DNA from: Spirochaetota bacterium
Lineage (GTDB): Bacteria > Spirochaetota > UBA4802 > UBA5550
Assembly: GCA_012730035.1 (NCBI GenBank)
Contig: JAAYBQ010000103.1
Coordinates: 1-41,110, forward strand
Direction: 5' to 3'
Length of the DNA: 41,110 nt
Both the position numbers and the translations under genes were made by a program. Of the stretch, positions 4,336-39,483 are shown piece by piece. Below the pieces are notes generated by a model. It was given only the letters and a program-made list of their open reading frames with translations, was not told the origin of the DNA and made no database searches. Every line of letters starts with the position of its first letter. Positions within the stretch are counted from its first letter, which is position 1.

Positions 4336-5526
4336 TCAGTCCATGGTTTTAATAAAGTTTTCGTATAGCCGGATCTTTTTTTCTATATAGGTTCGCGAGT
4401 AGTCGTTCTGCCATGAGCCACGGTCAGAGAGTGCAGACCTGTACAGGGTTATGAGAGTACCGGCATTTCTGCGCACCGCCAGCCTGTTTTTTTGCAGCAT
4501 GTTAAGGCTGGTCACGTAGAGTGTGCCGCGGTAGATGGATGTGAACTTGCGTCCGTCCGGTGAAAAATAGGTCTCTTCACCTTCAAGGCCGGTATCCCTG
4601 CGTTTAAGGTTGCTGCCCGAAAAGAATACGATCATCTGGTTGTCAAGGCAGGTTAGCATGCCGGCCTCGCGCGAAAAGTTTATGTCCGGGTTGAGTGTGC
4701 CGGTAAGTATCGCGGATTTTTTACGCGCTGATGAATCGTAGACATTTACAGAGTATTCACCAGCGCTGCCGCCGCTGTAGGCAAACATTGAATTGCTTAT
4801 CCAGCAGAGGTCAGCGGGTGATACTATTCCCGGAATGTCCGATGACGATGAACCGGACAGCAGCCTGGCGCTGTACAATCCGCCCCTTCCCGTAACAAGC
4901 AGGCTTCTCTTTCTGTCGGGCGATATGAAAGAGAGTACGGGCTCACCGTTCGCGAGGCTGCTGTAGCTGGAGGCTGGAACCATTATCTCTTTAACGTCGC
5001 CCAGGGGATTCATGCGCGCAAGTCCGTTCCTTCGATGAATCAGTATTGAGTCGCTGCCGGGAATGATTGTGTAATCAAGAAAAAAATATGGCGATGATTG
5101 TTTTACTGCGGGCCTGCCGCGAAGGCTGATGAACCATATTACGGCGGATGGCCCTGATGATGCGTACTCCAGTGTTTTAACAACCAGCGTGTCCCCCGAC
5201 GAGTTCAGGGATGAGGAGGTTACCGTGCCGCCGAACCTGGCCAGTTCAGATTTTTTGCCCGATGACCTGTCGTAGGACATGGCTATGTTGATGGAATTGT
5301 ATTCCCTGATGTAAATAATTGTTCTGCCGTCAGCCCATTCTGCGTAGATTGTTCTTGTGTCTACTGCCAGCGAAGATATCGCGGAGTAGGTTTTCTCTTT
5401 GCACTGAGTAAGCCTGGAGTAAAGAGTATCGGCCGGATTAATGTACATGCGGTCTAAATCAATGTCCCTCGGTGAAAGAGGGACATTGGCAAGCAGAAGA
5501 GCTGTAACAAGCAGAATCTTTTTCAT
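4336..5526 (-). CDS. Secreted protein, probable beta-propeller, unknown function
   Basis: This 396-aa protein starts with a signal peptide (MKKILLVTALLLANVPLS) without a lipobox Cys. The mature protein is rich in Ser, Gly and aromatic residues and shows repeated strand-like blades, such as SPDGRKFTSIYRG, SPDRKRSLLVTGRGG and NSSGDTLVVKTLE. These resemble WD40-like/TolB-type propeller blades that read SPDG followed by strands. Its start directly follows the LysM lipoprotein stop and it ends 4 bases before the protease gene, so the three are probably one transcript. It is likely periplasmic or exported. The propeller assignment is inferred from the blade-like pattern only; no catalytic motif was seen. 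Confidence 0.65.
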   Translation of the reverse strand: MKKILLVTALLLANVPLSPRDIDLDRMYINPADTLYSRLTQCKEKTYSAISSLAVDTRTIYAEWADGRTIIYIREYNSINIAMSYDRSSGKKSELARFGGTVTSSSLNSSGDTLVVKTLEYASSGPSAVIWFISLRGRPAVKQSSPYFFLDYTIIPGSDSILIHRRNGLARMNPLGDVKEIMVPASSYSSLANGEPVLSFISPDRKRSLLVTGRGGLYSARLLSGSSSSDIPGIVSPADLCWISNSMFAYSGGSAGEYSVNVYDSSARKKSAILTGTLNPDINFSREAGMLTCLDNQMIVFFSGSNLKRRDTGLEGEETYFSPDGRKFTSIYRGTLYVTSLNMLQKNRLAVRRNAGTLITLYRSALSDRGSWQNDYSRTYIEKKIRLYENFIKTMD

Positions 5527-7047
5527 CTATTTTGAAGCACCGTCAGCGCTTTCAGATTTTTCTCTGCGGATCATATCATTTAGTTCCTTTTTACCCGGCT
5601 TTTTTTCAGGCCTGGGCGGGATTCTGAATTTCTGTCCCGGGAAGATCAGGTCAGGATTTTTTATCTGGTCTCTGTTCGCGACGAAAATAAGAGGCCAGAG
5701 TGATGCGTCATCGTAAACCTTCTGTGAAATCCTCCAGAGACAGTCCGTATCCTTTTTTCTCCATTGTACAATGTAGAAATCTCCCTTTGTTTCCTGCGTA
5801 CCCTGATCGGCAACGGATGTCTGCGATGTATCAGATGTGTCAGATGTTCCGTCAGCAACTTTAACATCCAGGGCAGCTTCACTTTCGAGCGCGCTCATTA
5901 CAGCGGCAATTATGGTCTCTGCCTCGTCAGCCCTGGCCATTGCATCATTATAGTTTCCCGATGAAGAGAGGTTTTTCGCCTGGCGTATAAGCGCCTCTGC
6001 GCTGCCCAGGTTTTCGCTGTATTTTGCGCCGCTGTCTTTCTGCTTCGCGGCAGCGAGCATCTTTTCGGCGTTCGCGATGGCTTCGTCTGCGGCACCCTTT
6101 TTAAGCTTGCCCTCTGTCCGGGCTATAAGGTCCTTCGCGTTCCTTATTCGCGTTTCAGCGCTGTTGATGTTATTCTGGCCAAGCGCGGTTTCGGCCCCTT
6201 TAAGTTCGAGCATGGCATTGTCATGGTCGGTCGCCACTGATGCGCTGTTTTTATCTTTTTTAATGGTGTCAAGCTGTGAACGCAGAGTTGCGATCTCCGC
6301 TGCGAGTTTTTGTTTTTTGATCGCGCTCTCTGCTTTGCCAAGAGCTGCCTTTGCCTTGTCAAGTTCGGAATATGCCGTGCGGAAATCGCGCGAGTCCCTG
6401 GCGTCCTTTGCCATGGTCAGTGCCGATGCTGCCGCCCTTAGATCATCAGATGCGGCACCGGCCATCTTATCGTTTTTAAGTGCCAGGTGTTTTTCACCCG
6501 CTGATGAGAGTTCCCTGTCAAGGGTGTAGGAATTGCCGAGCGAATCATCACAGGCTGCACCTGCAATGGCAGTGGCCTCGTCTGCCAGTGACGCAGCCCT
6601 GCGGTATTCCCCCGCATCAAGAGCGGTTTTGGCCTCTGAGATTAATTCCCCTGAACTTTTCAGTTTTGCAGGTGAAAATTTTTCGGCATAAAGTTTTTCA
6701 GCCTCGCTGTACTTTTCTTCAGCGGCAGAGATTTTTTCGCCGGCAAAGAAAGGAAGCGATCTGTTTTCGGCAAGTTTTGCAGCATCGATCGCGTCGAGTG
6801 CCGATTTCTTTGCGGCATCAGCCTCCTCTTTGATTATTTCATCGTGAGCCTGCCGCACAAGGGCTTCAGCCTTGCCGAACTCATCGGGGCTGTGCCTGTC
6901 TGCGTTAACATCTTTTGCGGACTGGATTGCGGCCCTTGCGTCCGTAAGTTCCTGTACCGGCACTTCAACCTGGCATGCGAAAAAAAGCAGCGCAGCAACC
7001 GGAAGTGCAAGGTGTTTTCTGTTTATGAATGCCAAGATCTTTTTCAT
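5527..7047 (-). CDS. LysM-domain lipoprotein with DUF4398-like helical repeats
   Basis: This 506-aa lipoprotein has a signal ending in the lipobox LLFFAC (Cys ~25). Residues ~30-400 are Ala/Lys/Glu-rich helical repeats of the type 'A..A...I..A...ADAAKKSALDAIDAA', matching DUF4398-like periplasmic helical domains. Near residues 430-475 is one LysM domain, recognised from CLWRISQKVYDDASLWPLIF through IKNPDLIFPGQKFRIP, the usual peptidoglycan-binding fold. A charged tail follows. The likely role is a lipid-anchored spacer that contacts peptidoglycan. It is the first gene of the leftward envelope operon, and the next gene's start follows its stop directly. Confidence 0.85.
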   Translation of the reverse strand: MKKILAFINRKHLALPVAALLFFACQVEVPVQELTDARAAIQSAKDVNADRHSPDEFGKAEALVRQAHDEIIKEEADAAKKSALDAIDAAKLAENRSLPFFAGEKISAAEEKYSEAEKLYAEKFSPAKLKSSGELISEAKTALDAGEYRRAASLADEATAIAGAACDDSLGNSYTLDRELSSAGEKHLALKNDKMAGAASDDLRAAASALTMAKDARDSRDFRTAYSELDKAKAALGKAESAIKKQKLAAEIATLRSQLDTIKKDKNSASVATDHDNAMLELKGAETALGQNNINSAETRIRNAKDLIARTEGKLKKGAADEAIANAEKMLAAAKQKDSGAKYSENLGSAEALIRQAKNLSSSGNYNDAMARADEAETIIAAVMSALESEAALDVKVADGTSDTSDTSQTSVADQGTQETKGDFYIVQWRKKDTDCLWRISQKVYDDASLWPLIFVANRDQIKNPDLIFPGQKFRIPPRPEKKPGKKELNDMIRREKSESADGASK

Positions 7048-31117: not shown

Positions 31118-31891
31118 CTACTTAATGTTCTCGCGAAGTTTATGCAAAAACTTGGTCATCTCATCGGTATCCCTGTCCTTTATTATGTGCGTAAGGTACG
31201 AAAGCTGTGAGTTTATGCTTTCGATCTGCCGCAGGGTGTAGGGATTAAATAGTATCTCGGAAAGCAGGTAGTCATCCTCAGAGAGCAGTCCCTTCGCTAT
31301 CTCCATGTGCTTCTTGAACGTGGTTCCTGGAACGTCGATCTTTTTCATGCACGCGGCAAATACCAGTGTTGAGGCGAACGGTGTTGACAGGGAGTAGGCT
31401 ATGACGCTGTCATGTTCATCAAATGAATACTCGTACAGGTTCAGTTTGAGCGCATTGTACAGGTCGTGGAAAAATTTTTTGCCGTCAGCGTCAGATTCGG
31501 ATATTATGATGGCGCTTTCGCTGCTCAGGTTGCGGACATTGCCGAATGTGGGCCCGAACATGGGGTGGGTGGATACAAAGCGCATTCCCGTTTTTTTATA
31601 GTATCCGGCCAGCCCGTTTTTTACAGACGCGATGTCCGAGAGTATGCAACCCTTCGGCAGCAGAGGTATGACCTGGTCGAACACCTTTTCGGTTGCCTGA
31701 AGGCTTACGCAGTTTATGAACATGTCGGGCTTGAAAGCCTTTACCTCGTTAACATCGAGGAATCGTTTTACATTAAAAAAATATTTAAGCTTTTTGGGAT
31801 CGGTGTCATATATGGCAACTTCATGGTCATGACAGAGTTCCTCCGTGAGCCAGCTTCCCATTCGGCCTGCGCCTAAAATAAATATTTTCAT
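31118..31891 (-). CDS. tyrA: Prephenate dehydrogenase (TyrA)
   Basis: This 257-aa enzyme oxidatively decarboxylates prephenate to 4-hydroxyphenylpyruvate, the last committed step to tyrosine. The NAD-binding loop is GAGRMG (residues 7-12). The catalytic-His block reads STHPMFGP, and SEDDYLLSEILFNPYT is typical of the helical C-terminal dimer domain. It is short because it lacks both a chorismate mutase and an ACT domain, so it carries no visible built-in tyrosine sensor. Cofactor preference (NAD or NADP) and prephenate versus arogenate use were not resolved. Its ATG overlaps the pheA stop as TAATG, and it is the last gene before the terminator. Confidence 0.93.
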   Translation of the reverse strand: MKIFILGAGRMGSWLTEELCHDHEVAIYDTDPKKLKYFFNVKRFLDVNEVKAFKPDMFINCVSLQATEKVFDQVIPLLPKGCILSDIASVKNGLAGYYKKTGMRFVSTHPMFGPTFGNVRNLSSESAIIISESDADGKKFFHDLYNALKLNLYEYSFDEHDSVIAYSLSTPFASTLVFAACMKKIDVPGTTFKKHMEIAKGLLSEDDYLLSEILFNPYTLRQIESINSQLSYLTHIIKDRDTDEMTKFLHKLRENIK

Positions 31892-32970
31892 TATTCCACC
31901 GTCCTGCTGCTGTTCTCTTCAATATTCTTTTCAACGTAGCAGCCCAGAAGTTTAAGGCCAGATGATATTTCCTTTGTTTTTTCAAGCGCAGCGGTTACCA
32001 CCGGGTCTGTGTCCGATCCCTCGAAATCAACCAGGAATGAATAATTGCCCGGTTCGGTTGGAATCGATTCGATCCTGGTAAGGTTTATCCCTGAACCGGC
32101 AAATACTTCAAGTACTTTGAAGAGTGTTCCCGATTTGTGTGCGGTAGTGAAGGTGATTGAACACTTGTTGCCTTTTTCCGCGGATTTTGCTGTTGAAAGT
32201 ATAAGGAACCTTGTGCGGTTTATGTCGGAATCCTCGACGTTCTCTTTTAATATTTCAAGGTTGTAAAGCTCTGCAGCGAGCCTGCCGGCAATACATGCCG
32301 CGCCCATAATCTTTTTCTCGGTGAGCATCCTTGCCGCACCGGCAGTGTCATAGAATGGTATAGGTGTAAGGTTGTTCCGCGACAGAAACCTTCTGCACTG
32401 GGCGAGCGCCTGAGAGTGCGAGTAGACTTCCCGTATCTCTCTGTGGTCTGTTCCCGGGAGCATTAGCAGGCTGTGGTGCACGGGCATATTCACGGCACCC
32501 ACAATCTGCAGGTCTGTGCTGGTGAGCAGCTCGTTTACCGTTTCGATTATTCCACCCAGCGTGTTCTCGACCGGAACTATGCCGTAATCGAACATGCCCG
32601 ATGAGACTCCTTCAAAGACTCCGTTGAAAGTAGTACATGGCATGGTAACCAGTTTGATGTTCCAGTGCCTTGCAGCCTCTTCGCTGTAGGCGCCGTGTTC
32701 ACCCTGGAAACCGATTACACTGTAGTCCTTTGCCTGCAGCTCCTTGCCCCACGTGATGATCATTTTGTAAATGGACTCGGTGAATCCGGGCTGAAGCAGC
32801 GTGTGAGGATTTTTCTTCAGGCGCTCCATCACCTCGTTCTCTCTCTCCTTGTCCTCAATTTTGCTCTTGAACTTTTTGGCGAGCAGCGCCTGCTCCATTC
32901 TGTCGTTAAGCAGTTTTAGTATCTTTGAATCGATCAGATCTATGTTGTTTCTTATCTCTTCAAGTTTCAT
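31891..32970 (-). CDS. pheA: Bifunctional chorismate mutase / prephenate dehydratase (P-protein)
   Basis: A 359-aa fusion that turns chorismate into prephenate and then phenylpyruvate. Residues ~1-85 form an AroQ-type mutase (IRNNIDLIDSKILKLLNDR, AKKFKSK). Residues ~88-265 form the dehydratase (FQGEHGAYSEEAA, EGVSSGMFDYGIVPVEN, SHSQALAQCRRFL and the signature NRTRFLIL). The C-terminal ACT domain (HKSGTLFKVLEVFAGSGINL then IESIPTEPG) is the usual Phe-binding regulatory module; the normal ESRP motif reads ESIP here, so Phe sensitivity may be altered. The mutase supplies prephenate for both itself and TyrA. ATGA overlap with aroC upstream. Confidence 0.95.
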   Translation of the reverse strand: MKLEEIRNNIDLIDSKILKLLNDRMEQALLAKKFKSKIEDKERENEVMERLKKNPHTLLQPGFTESIYKMIITWGKELQAKDYSVIGFQGEHGAYSEEAARHWNIKLVTMPCTTFNGVFEGVSSGMFDYGIVPVENTLGGIIETVNELLTSTDLQIVGAVNMPVHHSLLMLPGTDHREIREVYSHSQALAQCRRFLSRNNLTPIPFYDTAGAARMLTEKKIMGAACIAGRLAAELYNLEILKENVEDSDINRTRFLILSTAKSAEKGNKCSITFTTAHKSGTLFKVLEVFAGSGINLTRIESIPTEPGNYSFLVDFEGSDTDPVVTAALEKTKEISSGLKLLGCYVEKNIEENSSRTVE

Positions 32971-33965
32971 TGACCGGCCTCCTGTTGGTATATTGCCCTG
33001 TTAACCAGGTACATGTCTGCAGCGGCTATTGCCGCACATGCTTCGAATACTACGGGGGCGCGGAGCGCAATGCACGCGTCGTGCCGCCCTGTTACTTCAA
33101 GTTTTTCCGTTTGTCCAGTGGAAAGATTAATTGTCTGCTGAGCCACGCGTATGCTCGGGGTAGGTTTAACCGCCACGCGGAACAGAACGGTGTTGCCGTT
33201 TGTAATGCCGCCGTTTATTCCGCCCGAGTTGTTTGTCGCAGTTGTGCCGTCCGCTGATACAATCGCATCGTTGTGCTCGCTTCCCTGCATGGCGGCCGCG
33301 GCGAAACCCGTACCGAATTCTATTCCGCGCACTGCGGGTACTGAAAAGACAAGGTGCGAAATGACCGACTCAAGTGAGTTGAAGAAGGGCTCGCCAAGTC
33401 CGGCAGGCAGGCTGTTTATGCGGACTTCTATGAGGCCGCCGAGTGAATCACCCCGTTCTATCGCTTCTTTCAGTTTCGCGTCGTAGTCTCTTAGCCCGCC
33501 TATTTCAAGCACCTGTGAACGTATATCCATTCCCGGGACGGTTTTTTTTGCAAGGGCGCCCGCTGCAACAAGGGCAAGCGTGATCCTGCCCGAAAAGTGG
33601 CCGCTGCCCCGCGGGTCGTTAAATCCCCCATACTTGGCAGTGGCCGTGAAGTCTGCGTGTCCCGGCCTTGGCGTATCCCTGAACCTGTCGTAGTCCGCTG
33701 ACCTGGTGTCGCTGTTCCTGAACAGAATGGCGACGGGCGCGCCTGTTGTGAATCCCCTGTACACGCCGCTCAGTATCTCGGGAACGTCCGGTTCGCGGCG
33801 TGCAGTTGTACCATGCCCGCCGGGCATCCTGCGCGCAAGGTCCGCTTCCATGTCGCCCGCGGCAAATGGTATGCCGGGAGGAGTTCCGTCAATAACAATC
33901 CCTATGCCGTTGCCGTGGGATTCGCCGAAAATTGAAATTCTGAAAACAGTTCCAAAGCTGTTCAT
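32967..33965 (-). CDS. aroC: Chorismate synthase
   Basis: This 332-aa FMN-dependent enzyme removes phosphate from EPSP to give chorismate. Signatures: FGESHGNGIGIVIDG (residues ~13-27), RRMPGGHGTTARRE, RPGHADFTATAKYGG, GSGHFSGRIT, NNSGGINGGITNG and GRHDACIALRAPVV. All active-site His and Arg blocks are present. It is ~25 residues shorter than common forms, in the middle and at the C terminus. Both ends overlap neighbours by 4 bases (aroA upstream, pheA downstream). Confidence 0.97.
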   Translation of the reverse strand: MNSFGTVFRISIFGESHGNGIGIVIDGTPPGIPFAAGDMEADLARRMPGGHGTTARREPDVPEILSGVYRGFTTGAPVAILFRNSDTRSADYDRFRDTPRPGHADFTATAKYGGFNDPRGSGHFSGRITLALVAAGALAKKTVPGMDIRSQVLEIGGLRDYDAKLKEAIERGDSLGGLIEVRINSLPAGLGEPFFNSLESVISHLVFSVPAVRGIEFGTGFAAAAMQGSEHNDAIVSADGTTATNNSGGINGGITNGNTVLFRVAVKPTPSIRVAQQTINLSTGQTEKLEVTGRHDACIALRAPVVFEACAAIAAADMYLVNRAIYQQEAGQ

Positions 33966-35209
33966 TGCACATTAACCCCCAGGGCGGCAAGATGTTCGTA
34001 AAATTCATGGTACGACTTGTCTATGCTCTCTGCGTGGTCAATCACAACGGGCCCTTCTGCCCCGAGTGCTGCGATCGCGCAGGCCATTGCTATTCTGTGG
34101 TCTCCATGCGAATCGGTAGTTCCGCCGGTTACGCGTGAACCTTTTATTACCATGCAGTCACCGTCAAGTTCAATGTTGCCGTTAAGTCTGCCCAGTTCAT
34201 TTTTTATTACGGCCCCCCTGTCGCTCTCTTTGTGCGTCAGCCTGCGTGCGCCTCGCAGCAGTGTTGTGCCTTCGCAGTACATGGCAAGCGCCGCCAGAGG
34301 CGGGAAGAGGTCCGGGCATTCGGCTGCATCGAACTCGAAGCCTTTAAGAGTTGAATGCGCGGCGGTGACGTATCCCTCACCCTCTGTTATATCCGCGCCT
34401 GCCAGCCTGAGTGCGTCAACAATTCTTCTGTCGGGCTGAAGCGAAAGGTTGTTAAGACCCGTGACACGCACCTGGCCCCTGATGGCGCCCGCGCATAGAA
34501 GAAACGCTGCGCCGCTCCAGTCTCCCTCTATGCAGATATCTGCGGGAACAAAAGCCTGGCGCCCCCTGATTTTGAACAGGTTGTAATTGCTGTTCTCAAC
34601 GCTGACTGAAAAGTGGTTTAACACCTTCAGTGTTATGTCTATGTACTGCCTGCTCTGTAAATTGTTAACGCTGATTAAGCTGTCCTCCTCCGCAGAGGGG
34701 AGCGCCATGAGGAGCCCGGTAAGGAACTGTGAGCTGAGGCTGCCGTCAATAACGGTTGATCCCCCCTTAAGCTTCGATGATACCTCAATTGGCAAAAAAC
34801 CGTTCTGTGATTTTACAGATGCGCCAAGATCGGATAATGACTCTTCGATTGTCGAGACCGGCCGCTTCAGAAGGCTACCCCTGCCTGTGAGTGTCATCTG
34901 GCGGCCCGTAAGAGCCGCTATGGGTGTAAACATCCTGACTCCCAAACCTGACTCTCCGCAGTCAAGTACTGAAACCGCGGGGTTGATCCCGCCGTCTATA
35001 ATGACGCGGTCCGATGATACGTGAACAGCTGCGCCGAGAGCTTCGGCAATACCGAGTGCAGCCCTTGAGTCATCGCAGAAACTTGGATTGGTAATAGTGG
35101 TGCGGCCGTTCGCGATCAGGGCAGCGGCAACAGCCCTCTGCATTTCACTCTTTGACGCGGGGGCAGCCTGAGTGCCGCGTGCCTCAGAGGGCGAGATTGA
35201 TTTCTTCAT
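33962..35209 (-). CDS. aroA: 5-enolpyruvylshikimate-3-phosphate synthase
   Basis: This 415-aa enzyme joins PEP to shikimate 3-phosphate; it is the target family of glyphosate. Motifs: PASKSEMQRAVAAALIANG (PEP/S3P-binding Lys and Arg), CGESGLGVRMF (in place of the common GNSGTTxR), RGSLLKRPV, QFLTGLLMALP, DWSGAAFLL, DLFPPLAALA, LTHKESDR and DHRIAMA. The CGESGLGVR loop is an unusual version of the conserved N/G-A/S-G-T loop; whether it changes glyphosate response cannot be said. GGAG lies 7-8 bases before ATG 35209, and the start overlaps the end of the aroE-aroK fusion by 26 bases, the largest overlap in the operon. Confidence 0.95.
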   Translation of the reverse strand: MKKSISPSEARGTQAAPASKSEMQRAVAAALIANGRTTITNPSFCDDSRAALGIAEALGAAVHVSSDRVIIDGGINPAVSVLDCGESGLGVRMFTPIAALTGRQMTLTGRGSLLKRPVSTIEESLSDLGASVKSQNGFLPIEVSSKLKGGSTVIDGSLSSQFLTGLLMALPSAEEDSLISVNNLQSRQYIDITLKVLNHFSVSVENSNYNLFKIRGRQAFVPADICIEGDWSGAAFLLCAGAIRGQVRVTGLNNLSLQPDRRIVDALRLAGADITEGEGYVTAAHSTLKGFEFDAAECPDLFPPLAALAMYCEGTTLLRGARRLTHKESDRGAVIKNELGRLNGNIELDGDCMVIKGSRVTGGTTDSHGDHRIAMACAIAALGAEGPVVIDHAESIDKSYHEFYEHLAALGVNVQ

Positions 35210-36491
35210 TTATATGCTCCGCTGTATGTTCGGGATTTACTTCAGATATTACCATCGCAGTGCAGGTCTGCGCGTACAATGGTTTCCGTTTTTCAAAAAG
35301 TTCATGCGCCTTTCTCTCCCTGTTTTCAACAGCGAGCAGGGGCCTGCTATTGTCAGTTATGCGGTTAAGTGATTCACGGGCCGATGTGTAGAGCCAGAAG
35401 CATCCGGTCTCTGCTGTTAGAAAATCGCGGTTTTCCTTTCGCAGGACAATGCCCCCTCCGCATGAAATAATAATGTTTTCAAGACCTTTCAGGGATAACA
35501 GGGTTTCAGTTTCTATCTCCCTGAACCTATCCTCGCCTATTGTGGTGAATATTTCGGGTATGGTCATATTCATTCGCTTCTGGATAAGCTCGTCGGTGTC
35601 GATAAATTCCATGTTCCGCATGCGCGCAAGCTCCCTTCCTGCTGAACTTTTACCGGAACCCATAAATCCTATAAGCGATATGTTTTTCTTTAATGACCGG
35701 GCGTGAGACAGTCCCCGCTTCATAAGTTCAGGTAAGGGAGTAATGCCTGTAAAGAGCCTGCATGCCGGTATAGCCTGGCGGACAAGCCATTCCTCGCCCG
35801 GAATAAAATTAAGGCCGAGCTTTGCGGAAGCGGACTCGTAGCGCGATTTTTTGTACGACGCGTCCATTACAAATGTGCCAGGCTTCATGGCCGAGATGTC
35901 AAGTTGTTCAGCCTCGTACGGTATAGCCGCAACAAAGATGTCCGCGGATGGAGTGTAGTCATGAATGTTCGCGAGAATGTCATGCCTGCAGCCTGTTTTG
36001 CGCGCCGCAGCTTCAGCCTCGGCAGGTGTAATGTTCAGTATAACAACATCTGCACCTCTGGACCGGGCGCCCCATGCCGCTGCCACGCCGGCGCCGCCGG
36101 CGCCGGCAATAACTGTTTTTTTACCCTTTATGCTCCCGGCATGGGCCTCAAGCGCCTCCGCAACTCCGGTAAAATCCGTATTGTAGCCTTTAAGCGTACC
36201 GTTTGATGAAACCACGGTGTTGACAGATTCAAGCCTTGCCGCGTCACCTGAGAGCATGTTCAAATGTCCTGCTATATCGAACTTGAATGGAGCGGTTACA
36301 TTCATGCCGCTAAAGCCCGCTTCGCGCATAAGACGCGCCGCATCAGCAGCGTCGCGCACCGCGACACGTATGTAAGAAGCGTCAACGCGGTATTCAGAGA
36401 ACACCTCGCGGAACATGAGCGGACTTTTGCTGTGAAGAACCGGGTTGCCTGTAACCCCGAATATTTTGTGTTCCGCGCTTTTTAGCATCAT
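35184..36491 (-). CDS. aroE-aroK: Shikimate dehydrogenase-shikimate kinase fusion
   Basis: A single 435-aa chain carries two consecutive steps. Residues 1-265 are shikimate dehydrogenase: SKSPLMF near the N terminus, catalytic Lys70 in GMNVTAPFK, Asp106 in GYNTDFTG, and the NADP loop GAGGAG (130-135). Residues ~270-435 are shikimate kinase: Walker A GFMGSGKSS (275-283), shikimate-binding DTDELIQKRM, the glycine triad CGGGIV, and the lid Arg in ITDNSRPLL and FEKRKPLY. Shikimate made by the first half would be used by the second. No stop or frameshift separates them. Two ATGs (36491, 36488) are possible starts; the first overlaps the aroD stop as ATGA. Confidence 0.95.
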   Translation of the reverse strand: MMLKSAEHKIFGVTGNPVLHSKSPLMFREVFSEYRVDASYIRVAVRDAADAARLMREAGFSGMNVTAPFKFDIAGHLNMLSGDAARLESVNTVVSSNGTLKGYNTDFTGVAEALEAHAGSIKGKKTVIAGAGGAGVAAAWGARSRGADVVILNITPAEAEAAARKTGCRHDILANIHDYTPSADIFVAAIPYEAEQLDISAMKPGTFVMDASYKKSRYESASAKLGLNFIPGEEWLVRQAIPACRLFTGITPLPELMKRGLSHARSLKKNISLIGFMGSGKSSAGRELARMRNMEFIDTDELIQKRMNMTIPEIFTTIGEDRFREIETETLLSLKGLENIIISCGGGIVLRKENRDFLTAETGCFWLYTSARESLNRITDNSRPLLAVENRERKAHELFEKRKPLYAQTCTAMVISEVNPEHTAEHINEEINLAL

Positions 36492-37129
36492 GCTTCCGAC
36501 ATCATGCTTATGATATTTTTTAGCGTGGAAGCATCTATCTGCCCGGGCGCGGTCCTGCGGCTTTTGTCATTGGCTGCGTAAGTAAAGGGGGCGCCGAGCA
36601 GAGTCGCCGCTATCCTGGTTATTCGTCCCAGTTCGCCCATTCCTATGGATATAACATTTTTATTAAGGCTGTATATCGAGAGGAGCCGGGCATTGTCCTC
36701 GATTGAATTGACCCGGCATGATATTTTTGCTATGTCCGGGCTGCTCTCAAGACACCAGTTAAGAACCTGTTCAAGTTCCCTCATAACCGGAGTCTTTACA
36801 AAGTCATGGTATGAGGTGATTACTTTGCAACCGTACTTTCTTGCTGCTTTTATTATTTCATCTTTGAAAAGATCACCTGTTTCAACTTCAATATCAACGT
36901 ATGCTGCGCCCGAGCGGATGGCAAGTAGAAGTGTTCCTATCCTGGTTGATTCGGAAACACCTTCTGAGGGCCTGTACGTGGCAATGGTTTTACCCTTTGC
37001 TGAAAAGAGAGACTTGATGTCATCGCTGCCAAGTTTGAGCCTGTCTATACGCACTTCGCAAAGTTCGTTAGCGTTTACTATTTCTGCCGCCTCTGCTGCT
37101 GTTACGTCGGCAATACTAATACATATCAT
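36488..37129 (-). CDS. aroD: 3-dehydroquinate dehydratase, type I
   Basis: This 213-aa type I enzyme dehydrates 3-dehydroquinate via a Schiff base. Motifs: ELCEVRIDRL (substrate-binding Glu and Arg), VITSYHDF with the catalytic His108, DIAKIS with the Schiff-base Lys135, GELGRITR and a C-terminal APGQIDA. Somewhat smaller than E. coli AroD (252 aa) but complete in active-site residues. Overlaps aroB and the aroE-aroK fusion by 4 bases each. Confidence 0.94.
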   Translation of the reverse strand: MICISIADVTAAEAAEIVNANELCEVRIDRLKLGSDDIKSLFSAKGKTIATYRPSEGVSESTRIGTLLLAIRSGAAYVDIEVETGDLFKDEIIKAARKYGCKVITSYHDFVKTPVMRELEQVLNWCLESSPDIAKISCRVNSIEDNARLLSIYSLNKNVISIGMGELGRITRIAATLLGAPFTYAANDKSRRTAPGQIDASTLKNIISMMSEA

Positions 37130-38190
37130 AGATAATTTTCTCCAGTGGTAATATGTTCCCTTATCAGTCCGTCCAGATCAGAAAGGCTGATATCCCGGAC
37201 AACGGGTCTGCCTGTGCCTTCAAGCAGCACAAACTTAACCGAGCTGCCATCCCTTTTCTTGTCGCTCGCGGCAGCCTCTGCAAGCCTTGCCGAATCTGCA
37301 GCAGCGGCAGTATCATAAAGTCCTGATGGAAGCCCGAAGAATTTAAGCATCGACAATATCCGTTCCGATTGAGCGTTGTCGATCAGCCCGAACTTTTGCG
37401 ACATGAAGAGCGAAAAACCTATACCCGCTGCCACGGCATGCCCGTGCGCCACGCCATGGACCTTCTCGAGGGCATGGCCCGCGGTATGGCCCAGGTTAAG
37501 AATCCTGCGCAGGCCGGTCTCTCTTTCGTCCATGGTCACGACCGAAGCCTTGAACTGTGCGCACCTGTAGACTGCTTCTTCCACAGCCGAAGCGTCGCGT
37601 TCCCTGAGCGGCTCCCTGTGCTGCCAGACAAAATCGAAAAGGCCCGAATTCTCAAGGCATGCGGTCTTGACAAGTTCGGCCATGCCGTTCCTGTACTCCT
37701 CCTCTTCGAGTGTGGCGAGCATTGAATGGTCGCATATTACAAAGCGGGGCTGGCAGAATACTCCTGCCATGTTCTTGAGCCTGTCTATGTTCACGCCGTT
37801 TTTACCGCCCACACTCGCGTCAACCTGGGCGAGAAGCGTGGTAGAAACAAAACCGAAATCGAGCCCGCGCATAAAGATCGACGCAGCGAAACCGGTGATG
37901 TCGCTTACTATTCCGCCCCCAATGCCCGTAATAAATGTATTCCTGTCCGCGCCCAGCGAAATGAATTCCCTGATTATCTCTTCCACGGTGGCAAGGGTCT
38001 TGATCCCCTCGCCAGTACCGATCACAATGGCAGGTATGCCTTTAAACCGGTCGGCGTAGAGCCTGTGAACATTTGTGTCTGTAACAATTATGTTTTTTGA
38101 CGGGTCCGCATACCCTGCCAGGTCGTCAATAGATCCGCCCGCGTAAACAGTTGAAAGCCTGTTTTCGAGATTGATCTTTATCTCTCTCAA
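37126..38190 (-). CDS. aroB: 3-dehydroquinate synthase
   Basis: This 354-aa NAD- and metal-dependent enzyme cyclises DAHP to 3-dehydroquinate. The nucleotide-binding GIGGGIVSD (residues ~89-97) is followed by the family block [19 protein letters not shown] and, in the C-terminal metal domain, [26 protein letters not shown] and HGHAVAAGI with the metal His residues. Normal length. ATGA overlaps on both sides with aroF and aroD. Confidence 0.97.
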
Positions 38191-39029
38191 TGACGACCTC
38201 CGATAATGCTCGGCCCGATTTCGGTATCCATGAACTTTTTAAGTTTGAGCACCTTCTCCATAAGGTGGCTGAACTGTGACGGCGTAAGCTGCTGGTCCGC
38301 GTCACTCTTTGCCTCTGCCGGGTTTATGTGAACCTCAATGAGGATGCCGTCAGCACCTGCAGCGACAGCGGCAAGGCTCATGGATTCAATAAGGCTCAGT
38401 TTACCCGTGCCGTGTGACGGGTCAACCATAATAGGCAGGTGTGTCATCTCTTTCATGGCCGGGATAATGGAAAGGTCGAGCGTGTTCCTTGTGTACGTCT
38501 CGAAGGTTCTGATTCCGCGTTCGCACAATATAACGTTGGGGTTACCCTCTGCCAGTATGTACTCCGCGCAGCTCAGCAGTTCCCTGAACGTGGAGTGCAT
38601 TCCCCGCTTAAGCAGAATCGGTTTGTTTGACTTGCCGACCTCTTTAAGCAGGGAAAAGTTCTGCATGTTGCGCGCGCCTATCTGCAGAATGTCCGCGTAT
38701 TCGCATACCCACGAAACATCCCGCGGGTCAATAACCTCTGTCACTACGGGCAGACCTGTTTTAAGCTTTGCCTTTTCAAGTATCTTCAGCCCTTTAAGGC
38801 CCAGGCCCTGGAAGTCGTAGGGCGAGGTCCTTGGTTTGAACGCTCCGCCGCGTATCATGTTGCCGTGGGCTTTCTTCACAGCCTCTGCTGTCTTCATTGT
38901 CTGCTCTTCGCTCTCGACGCTGCACGGGCCTGCGATCACCACAAAGTCTTTGCCGATGACGCTGTTGCCCACCTTGATTTCGGTCCTTTTACCCGATTCT
39001 TCGAGTTTAACCAGTTTCAGATTCTTCAT
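38187..39029 (-). CDS. aroF: DAHP synthase, short type I-beta form without regulatory domain
   Basis: This 280-aa enzyme condenses PEP and erythrose 4-phosphate, the entry step of the pathway. It is of the KDO8P-synthase-like I-beta type: [10 protein letters not shown] with metal-ligand Cys36, [56 protein letters not shown] and [17 protein letters not shown]. Only ~30 residues precede the catalytic core, so the ACT-like N-terminal domain that gives Tyr/Phe feedback in longer members is missing, and there is no fused chorismate mutase. GGGAGAGG lies 11 bases before the ATG, just beyond the leader terminator. First structural gene of the operon. Confidence 0.96.
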
Positions 39030-39056
39030 TTTTTTATCTACCTCTCCCTGTTTGCC

Positions 39057-39090
39057 AAAAAAAAGACCCTTTGCGTTTTATCAAAGGGTC
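39057..39090 (-). terminator. Leader terminator (attenuator) before aroF
   Basis: Read leftward, GACCCTTTG (39090-39082) pairs perfectly with CAAAGGGTC (39073-39065) around an 8-nt loop, and eight T follow (39064-39057). It stands between the leader peptide and the aroF ribosome binding site, so termination here would silence all eight genes. Confidence 0.88.
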
Positions 39091-39121
39091 CTTTTGCTCT
39101 GTATGCTTATGATAAAACCGC
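39073..39121 (-). promoter_or_regulatory. Antiterminator pairing partners of the aro attenuator
   Basis: GTTTTATCA (39118-39110), just after the leader stop codon, is perfectly complementary to TGATAAAAC (39083-39075), which is the terminator loop plus the last two bases of its 5' arm. With one bulged G, two more pairs (C39120-G39074, G39121-C39073) reach into the 3' arm. The two folds cannot coexist. A ribosome at the leader stop would cover the first segment and favour termination; one stalled at the aromatic codons would leave it free. Confidence 0.75.
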
Positions 39122-39122
39122 G

Positions 39123-39233
39123 CTACGCTGATATGTGGCTTCCGTAAAAATAAAAATAGTAATAACCGTAGTTCAGAGACTGCGGTCCGGATGCGTATTG
39201 CGCTGCTGCGATCTGTTTTACAAGGCTTTTCAT
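39123..39233 (-). CDS. Tyr/Phe-rich leader peptide of the aromatic operon
   Basis: A 36-codon frame, ATG at 39233-39231 and TAG at 39125-39123, starts MKSLVKQIAAAQYASG and carries YGYYYFYFY at residues 22-30 (39170-39144): eight aromatic residues in nine, with seven Tyr and two Phe overall and no Trp. Such a run is the hallmark of a peptide whose translation gauges charged tRNA. The ribosome binding site is weak (only AAAAG near the ATG), and the predicted 5' leader is short. It lies between a promoter-like TTGACA and the attenuator. An overlapping longer frame in another register has no such pattern. Confidence 0.85.
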   Translation of the reverse strand: MKSLVKQIAAAQYASGPQSLNYGYYYFYFYGSHISA

Positions 39234-39251
39234 GGCTTTTAACTGAAAACA

Positions 39252-39281
39252 TAGATATCCGCCGACTGAATGGTCTGTCAA
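39252..39281 (-). promoter_or_regulatory. Candidate promoter of the aromatic operon
   Basis: TTGACA (39281-39276, perfect -35) is followed after 18 bases by TATCTA (39257-39252), a poor -10 match (3 of 6). Transcription would begin near 39245, about a dozen bases before the leader ATG. The -35 is convincing; the -10 is not. Confidence 0.5.
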
Positions 39282-39386: not shown

Positions 39387-39439
39387 TAAAAAAACCAGTA
39401 TCTGTTCAATCAATAATTAAGAAACAGGAGCCTGTTTTC

Positions 39440-39483
39440 GACGGACAGATGACGGACACATGACGGACAGATGACGGACAGAT
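39440..39483. repeat. 11-bp tandem repeat, four units
   Basis: GACGGACAGAT is repeated head to tail four times with one change (second unit GACGGACACAT). The period is close to one helical turn, so identical faces are presented on the same side of the DNA. It lies between the SH3 gene's stop and the aro promoter, ~160 bases upstream of the latter. Confidence 0.85.

Follow-up and report, generated by a model that had tools for sequence, protein, structure and literature searches.

We identified, in a 41,110-nucleotide stretch of DNA from a Spirochaetota bacterium (the window), a short leader region that, to judge from its sequence, very probably (roughly 0.88) acts as a ribosome-mediated transcription attenuator for the whole shikimate, phenylalanine and tyrosine operon behind it. 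The region contains an ORF with codons for the products of the operon, an intrinsic terminator, a conserved antiterminator that competes with it, and a stop codon placed so that a ribosome sitting on it would mask one antiterminator strand. The features, all on the minus strand, are:

39281-39276, minus strand: -35-like box TTGACA, read in the sequence
39252..39258, minus strand: poor -10-like box, ATATCT (17-nt spacing) or TATCTA (18-nt spacing), read by eye
39233-39123, minus strand: leader ORF of 36 codons, with its ATG at 39233 and its stop codon TAG at 39125-39123
39164..39187, minus strand: predicted hairpin (the P hairpin) within the leader ORF, directly before the aromatic run
39144..39170, minus strand: control codons YGYYYFYFY, inside the leader ORF
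39121-39110, minus strand: strand 2 (antiterminator 5′ strand), GCGGTTTTATCA, beginning 2 nt past the stop codon
39083-39073, minus strand: strand 3 (antiterminator 3′ strand), TGATAAAACGC, which makes up the terminator's apical loop and the top of its stem
39057..39095, minus strand: intrinsic terminator (14 bp, 8-nt loop and T8), between the leader ORF and aroF
39041..39048, minus strand: Shine-Dalgarno-like sequence of aroF, GGGAGAGG, 3′ of the terminator, read by eye

The peptide encoded by the leader ORF (39233-39123) is MKSLVKQIAAAQYASGPQSLNYGYYYFYFYGSHISA. The first-pass annotation had described the TTGACA box, the 36-codon frame with YGYYYFYFY, a complementary segment after the stop codon and the T8, and we confirmed the sequence and coordinates of each. 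It had also described a 9-bp hairpin: the 9-bp arms are where it placed them (39090-39082 and 39073-39065, followed by T8 at 39064-39057), but the stem is 14 bp long when the A/U flank is counted. The core complementarity is between 39118-39110 (GTTTTATCA) and 39083-39075 (TGATAAAAC); allowing one bulged G lengthens it to 11 bp (39121-39110 with 39083-39073). Two weaknesses had been conceded, and both are real: the -10 box is poor, with too little conservation among relatives for certainty, and the ribosome site of the leader is weak. However, none of the seven leaders that we compared (see below) has a clear Shine-Dalgarno sequence, so the weak site is not a flaw of the window's copy. A pattern search for seven consecutive Tyr/Phe codons (TWY x7) in any frame found two sites in the source assembly (3.3 Mb in 442 contigs, 86% complete); the second is antisense within an ABC-transporter ATPase-like gene. 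In addition, an imperfect dyad (TGACAGAC...AGTC, 39263-39280, minus strand) overlaps the -35 box and is kept in four of the seven relatives, with GACAGGTTTCTGTC at its position in L085; it is a possible candidate operator. Tandem CTGTCCGTCAT-like repeats (39439-39482, minus strand) lie between the upstream gene, which is SH3-domain lipoprotein-like, and the leader promoter.

Behind the leader are eight tightly packed genes (aroF-aroB-aroD-aroEK-aroA-aroC-pheA-tyrA), all on the minus strand:

38187..39029 (ATG at 39029), minus strand: aroF/aroG-type DAHP synthase, type I-beta core (NF006421, 430.6 bits; PF00793)
37126..38190, minus strand: aroB, 3-dehydroquinate synthase (TIGR01357, 314.2 bits)
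36488..37129, minus strand: aroD, type I 3-dehydroquinate dehydratase (TIGR01093, 125.1 bits; cut-off 139.3)
35184..36491, minus strand: aroE-aroK fusion, shikimate dehydrogenase and shikimate kinase
33962..35209, minus strand: aroA, EPSP synthase (TIGR01356, 337.2 bits)
32967..33965, minus strand: aroC, chorismate synthase (NF003793, 358.2 bits)
31891..32970, minus strand: pheA, chorismate mutase-prephenate dehydratase with an ACT domain
31118..31891, minus strand: tyrA, prephenate dehydrogenase (PF02153, 45.3 bits; cut-off 26.5)

All seven steps of the common pathway and both terminal branches thus stand behind the leader, and the operon content first claimed is borne out by profile matches for the eight genes. 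PF00793 covers nearly the whole 280-residue DAHP synthase, which has no N-terminal extension and no regulatory domain, so feedback through an N-terminal regulatory domain is presumably absent. A search of the assembly yielded no second PF00793 or PF01474 protein (though, at 86% completeness, the assembly could be missing another enzyme). Since the operon holds the sole detectable DAHP synthase of the assembly, a Tyr/Phe leader would gate all chorismate, and this raises the question of how Tyr/Phe supply can shut the only DAHP synthase without starving the synthesis of Trp and folate.

We propose that RNA polymerase would start downstream of the TTGACA box, with a ribosome translating the leader ORF behind it. 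An ample supply of charged tRNA-Tyr and tRNA-Phe would let the ribosome travel on to the stop codon, where its footprint would cover strand 2 (39121-39110); the terminator would then form, and transcription would end near 39057. When either tRNA is scarce, the ribosome would stall in the YGYYYFYFY run and leave strand 2 free to pair with strand 3 before the last terminator arm (strand 4) is made, and the polymerase would pass on into aroF through tyrA. Folding with a 14-nt footprint upheld the fit to the pheA/trp model that had been suggested, in which a stall frees strand 2 and the stop codon masks it: with the ribosome at codons 22-30 strand 2 is predicted to be free and paired with strand 3, and with the ribosome at the stop codon strand 2 is lost. 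Attenuation also appears to be in use elsewhere in this genome, since a Trp leader (WWW) with a terminator precedes trpE. The signal could be narrower or broader than we propose (mainly one of Tyr and Phe, or the general rate of translation), as the presence of codons for both does not by itself reveal which counts and Trp is absent from all seven leaders; but every leader keeps both codons and the operon makes both products, which leaves this version of attenuation very unlikely.

The window's DNA had been taken as probably spirochaetal, in agreement with its nearest named relatives, which are MAGs labelled Spirochaetia or Spirochaetes. This aroF occurs in 7 of the 20 genomes examined from the same family (the relatives are 82-86% identical), and each of the seven carries a homologous leader, the TTGACA box, the terminator and the antiterminator. 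The box is located 48-76 nt 5′ of the leader ATG in each (0.025 expected per such stretch), and the operon order is conserved across the seven, with one genome (G001) being without the aroE-K segment in place. A check for conservation of the run and stems in relatives had been suggested at the outset; in all seven genomes the aromatic run persists, and so do the terminator and the antiterminator, which show compensatory changes. No leader was found before the f3-family aroF orthologues (72-75% identical), and no comparable leader preceded the gene in 20 further DAHP synthase upstream regions taken as background. A covariance model spanning the stop codon to the T-run found exactly seven copies (75-83 bits) in 46 genomes of the order and 393 Spirochaetota genomes, one per genome and solely before aroF. 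The next matches, at 45 and 43 bits, we read as ordinary terminators, as we did on reading those at 30-45 bits (L058, L059, L142-L144, L149, L150). With one model, seven finds and a wide gap to the next match, the comparative support is enough to define an RNA family.

That such leaderless terminators elsewhere reach 45 bits might suggest that the window's hairpin, too, just ends upstream transcription or fixes a constant fraction of read-through, next to an ORF that is there by chance. This is hard to reconcile with an aromatic run conserved in seven genomes and matched at just one further site in the assembly, with the compensatory antiterminator changes, and with a conserved -35 box that lies after the upstream gene and ahead of the terminator, and we consider it very improbable; we reject a chance ORF in particular on the rarity of the run in the assembly and its conservation in the seven genomes.

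Among the six alignable leaders, the seven aromatic codons show 5, 15 and 36 differences at codon positions 1, 2 and 3, respectively, and Tyr and Phe codons interchange. Third-position differences together with Tyr/Phe exchange point to selection for aromatic codons rather than for one particular peptide. This bears on a nascent-peptide sensor, in which a conserved peptide (MKxLxK...PKSFxFG...) would arrest the ribosome, sense a free metabolite and switch the same terminator. TnaC is a comparable switch, responding to tryptophan. The N-terminal and pre-run residues are indeed as conserved as the aromatic run, but Tyr and Phe swap freely within the run, the SZUA-423 leader (L008) lacks the N-terminal motif and yet keeps the run and stems, and the P hairpin accounts for part of the conservation of PKSFxFG; such a sensor is therefore improbable, if somewhat less so than the alternatives above.

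Ribosome-mediated attenuation requires two alternative helices, and both leave traces in the alignment. In the terminator, 98.6% of the cells are paired (compared to 93.3% in shuffled alignments and 10-76% in slid controls), and three pairs are changed on both sides; these counts are from the short alignment A2, and the longer A1 and A3 are one base out of register for L004 and L007 in the terminator's 3′ arm. Each distinct sequence has strand 2 paired with the loop and upper part of the terminator, and shuffles equal or beat this duplex in 0-0.4% of cases in each of six sequences. All antiterminator positions but one remain paired in the distinct sequences, and three of them show compensatory changes (A-U/G-C; U-A/U-G/C-G; C-G/A-U), which we counted by hand because the distinct sequences are few (six, too few for a formal covariation test). 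L003 and L005 have a C-U mismatch at one antiterminator position. In L006, a terminator pair has changed from U-A to C-G and the matching strand-2 base from A to G; such a joint change in strands 2, 3, and 4 is what one would expect from competition of strands 2 and 4 for strand 3.

The predicted energies are -18 to -25 kcal/mol for the terminator, -4.5 to -9 kcal/mol for the antiterminator before strand 4, and -10 to -18 kcal/mol for the strand-2/strand-3 duplex alone. The terminator is so much stronger that antitermination would have to win kinetically, acting ahead of the transcription of strand 4 as it does in known attenuators. Most of strand 3 is terminator loop, so steric hindrance would contribute more to exclusion than the sharing of stem bases: coexistence of both helices would need a pseudoknot with near-zero connecting bases across an 11-bp helix, and we infer that mutual exclusion in this model is partly steric. 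The P hairpin is predicted in all seven leaders, with some covarying pairs; in each of the seven sequences, its stability exceeds that of 89-99% of synonymous recodings. A weak 1:2 pairing is seen only in the ribosome-free fold of the window. A role of the P hairpin in polymerase pausing is a guess.

We also considered a T-box or a metabolite riboswitch working through this terminator. Such elements are frequent in amino-acid operons, but no Rfam match to either was found at E up to 1, so we regard this as extremely unlikely. In the window, Rfam 15 gave only a sub-threshold Thr_leader match (22.2 bits; gathering threshold 55), which we took as a shared terminator-like shape and not as membership, and a snoRNA; no Rfam leader family exceeded its gathering threshold in the window or its relatives.

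In E. coli, pheA and trp are preceded by leader attenuators, and the spirochaete leader resembles them in its product-codon ORF, its terminator, its competing antiterminator and a stop codon placed to mask strand 2. No sequence homology to them was found (there is no Rfam leader match above threshold), and the two differ in other ways: strand 3 is the terminator apex in the spirochaetes and mainly the terminator 5′ arm in E. coli; the early hairpin of the spirochaetes is conserved, sits inside the ORF and leaves strand 2 unused; and the spirochaete leader controls the whole common pathway and both branches. A comparative survey of such attenuators is available (Vitreschak et al., 2004, cited in PMC1262725). 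Leader attenuation of aromatic genes, established in Proteobacteria as the first-pass annotation had it, is not limited to them. According to a 2010 survey, leader-peptide systems were at that time known solely from Proteobacteria and Actinobacteria, and the survey added one in Firmicutes (PMC2965389). Leader peptide attenuation has been proposed for aroF of Corynebacterium glutamicum (PMC4046766), where Phe and Tyr codons (Phe-Tyr-Phe) also precede a DAHP synthase gene and a short attenuated transcript is described; that leader is actinobacterial, has a three-residue run and serves one of two DAHP synthases. Similarly, attenuation was proposed for the uORFC-13-1 motif before Acholeplasma aroF, which likewise has a promoter, a uORF with Phe codon(s) and a terminator before a DAHP synthase (PMC8632094). 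It comes from another phylum, has at least one Phe codon only and an extra stem of its own, and is compared here by its published description, with no homology shown. Thus, the mechanism is known, and its occurrence in spirochaetes has, as far as we found, not been described; the literature searched (with thin coverage of subscription journals) yielded no spirochaete aromatic leader, so the novelty first claimed holds within it. Our comparative evidence extends aromatic leader attenuation to spirochaetes.

We find a second class of aromatic leader in the same order, before a different, N-extended DAHP synthase, in 15 other genomes from five families including the window's own (L087-L100, L102). 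Like the window's leader, it has a Tyr/Phe run, a terminator and an antiterminator before a DAHP synthase gene; in contrast, its run often includes Trp, its DAHP synthase is of another type, and the two leaders are not homologous. In this class, a segment of the ORF pairs with a post-stop segment around the run (a covarying 1:2 hairpin), and a segment at the end of the ORF is complementary to the terminator 5′ arm (CGCTCG/CGGGCG, CGCTCG/CGAGCG, GCCCG/CGGGC, GTCCG/CGGAC). Most also have a second downstream hairpin in which CCTCC faces the Shine-Dalgarno GGAGG, so that joint control of transcription and translation by Shine-Dalgarno masking is possible on the predicted structure. RNAalifold predicted 30 pairs, 13 of them changed on both sides, and a model of this class matched 16 genomes at 67-80 bits, all from this order and none among the seven with the first class. 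The order is thus a natural experiment, with two unrelated leaders before the same reaction and never in one genome.

The Trp leader in the window's genome (MNLIKIHIANYVSCWWWYLYR; L103, G000:C60) lies with its terminator before trpE (4415-5770), and its promoter is overlapped by a dyad, CATCATGTTTCTATATACAGAAACATGATG; a similar dyad, together with a terminator, lies ahead of the gene for a second chorismate-binding enzyme (L104, G000:C297:4610). The two dyads suggest a shared repressor plus attenuation. A weak covariance match in another family of the order (L148, G022:C11:64427-64497) proved to be a Trp leader ending in GLWWWIYLLVSA, with a terminator and a trpE-like gene. No Phe leader was seen before pheS in the window's genome. 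Tentatively, and with the odds slightly against so broad a claim, leader-peptide attenuation may be the main control of aromatic synthesis across the order: two exclusive, non-homologous classes would serve one DAHP synthase type each, alongside the Trp leaders of trpE; the Tyr/Phe-only leader of the window's lineage would gate the sole DAHP synthase, and hence chorismate for Trp and folate; and the second class would add Shine-Dalgarno masking.

Aromatic leaders were also seen outside the order. Acidobacteria MAGs (L043-L047) have leaders such as MALAHSYRFWYWYVASRERVDLHAMKN, about 180-96 nt before a DAHP synthase gene and followed by a terminator (for example, CCCACTCGG/CCGAGTGGG), with CCACTCG and CGAGTGG on either side of the run, an arrangement like that of a classical 1:2:3:4 attenuator. 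Two contigs labelled Syntrophus (L040) and Desulfobacteraceae (L037) carry aromatic-rich leaders (SFNFYYWYFYGIKHPWSFML and WSYPYLFLFEKTGPPMV) and terminators upstream of genes closely homologous to the window's aroF, possibly by horizontal transfer or misbinning.
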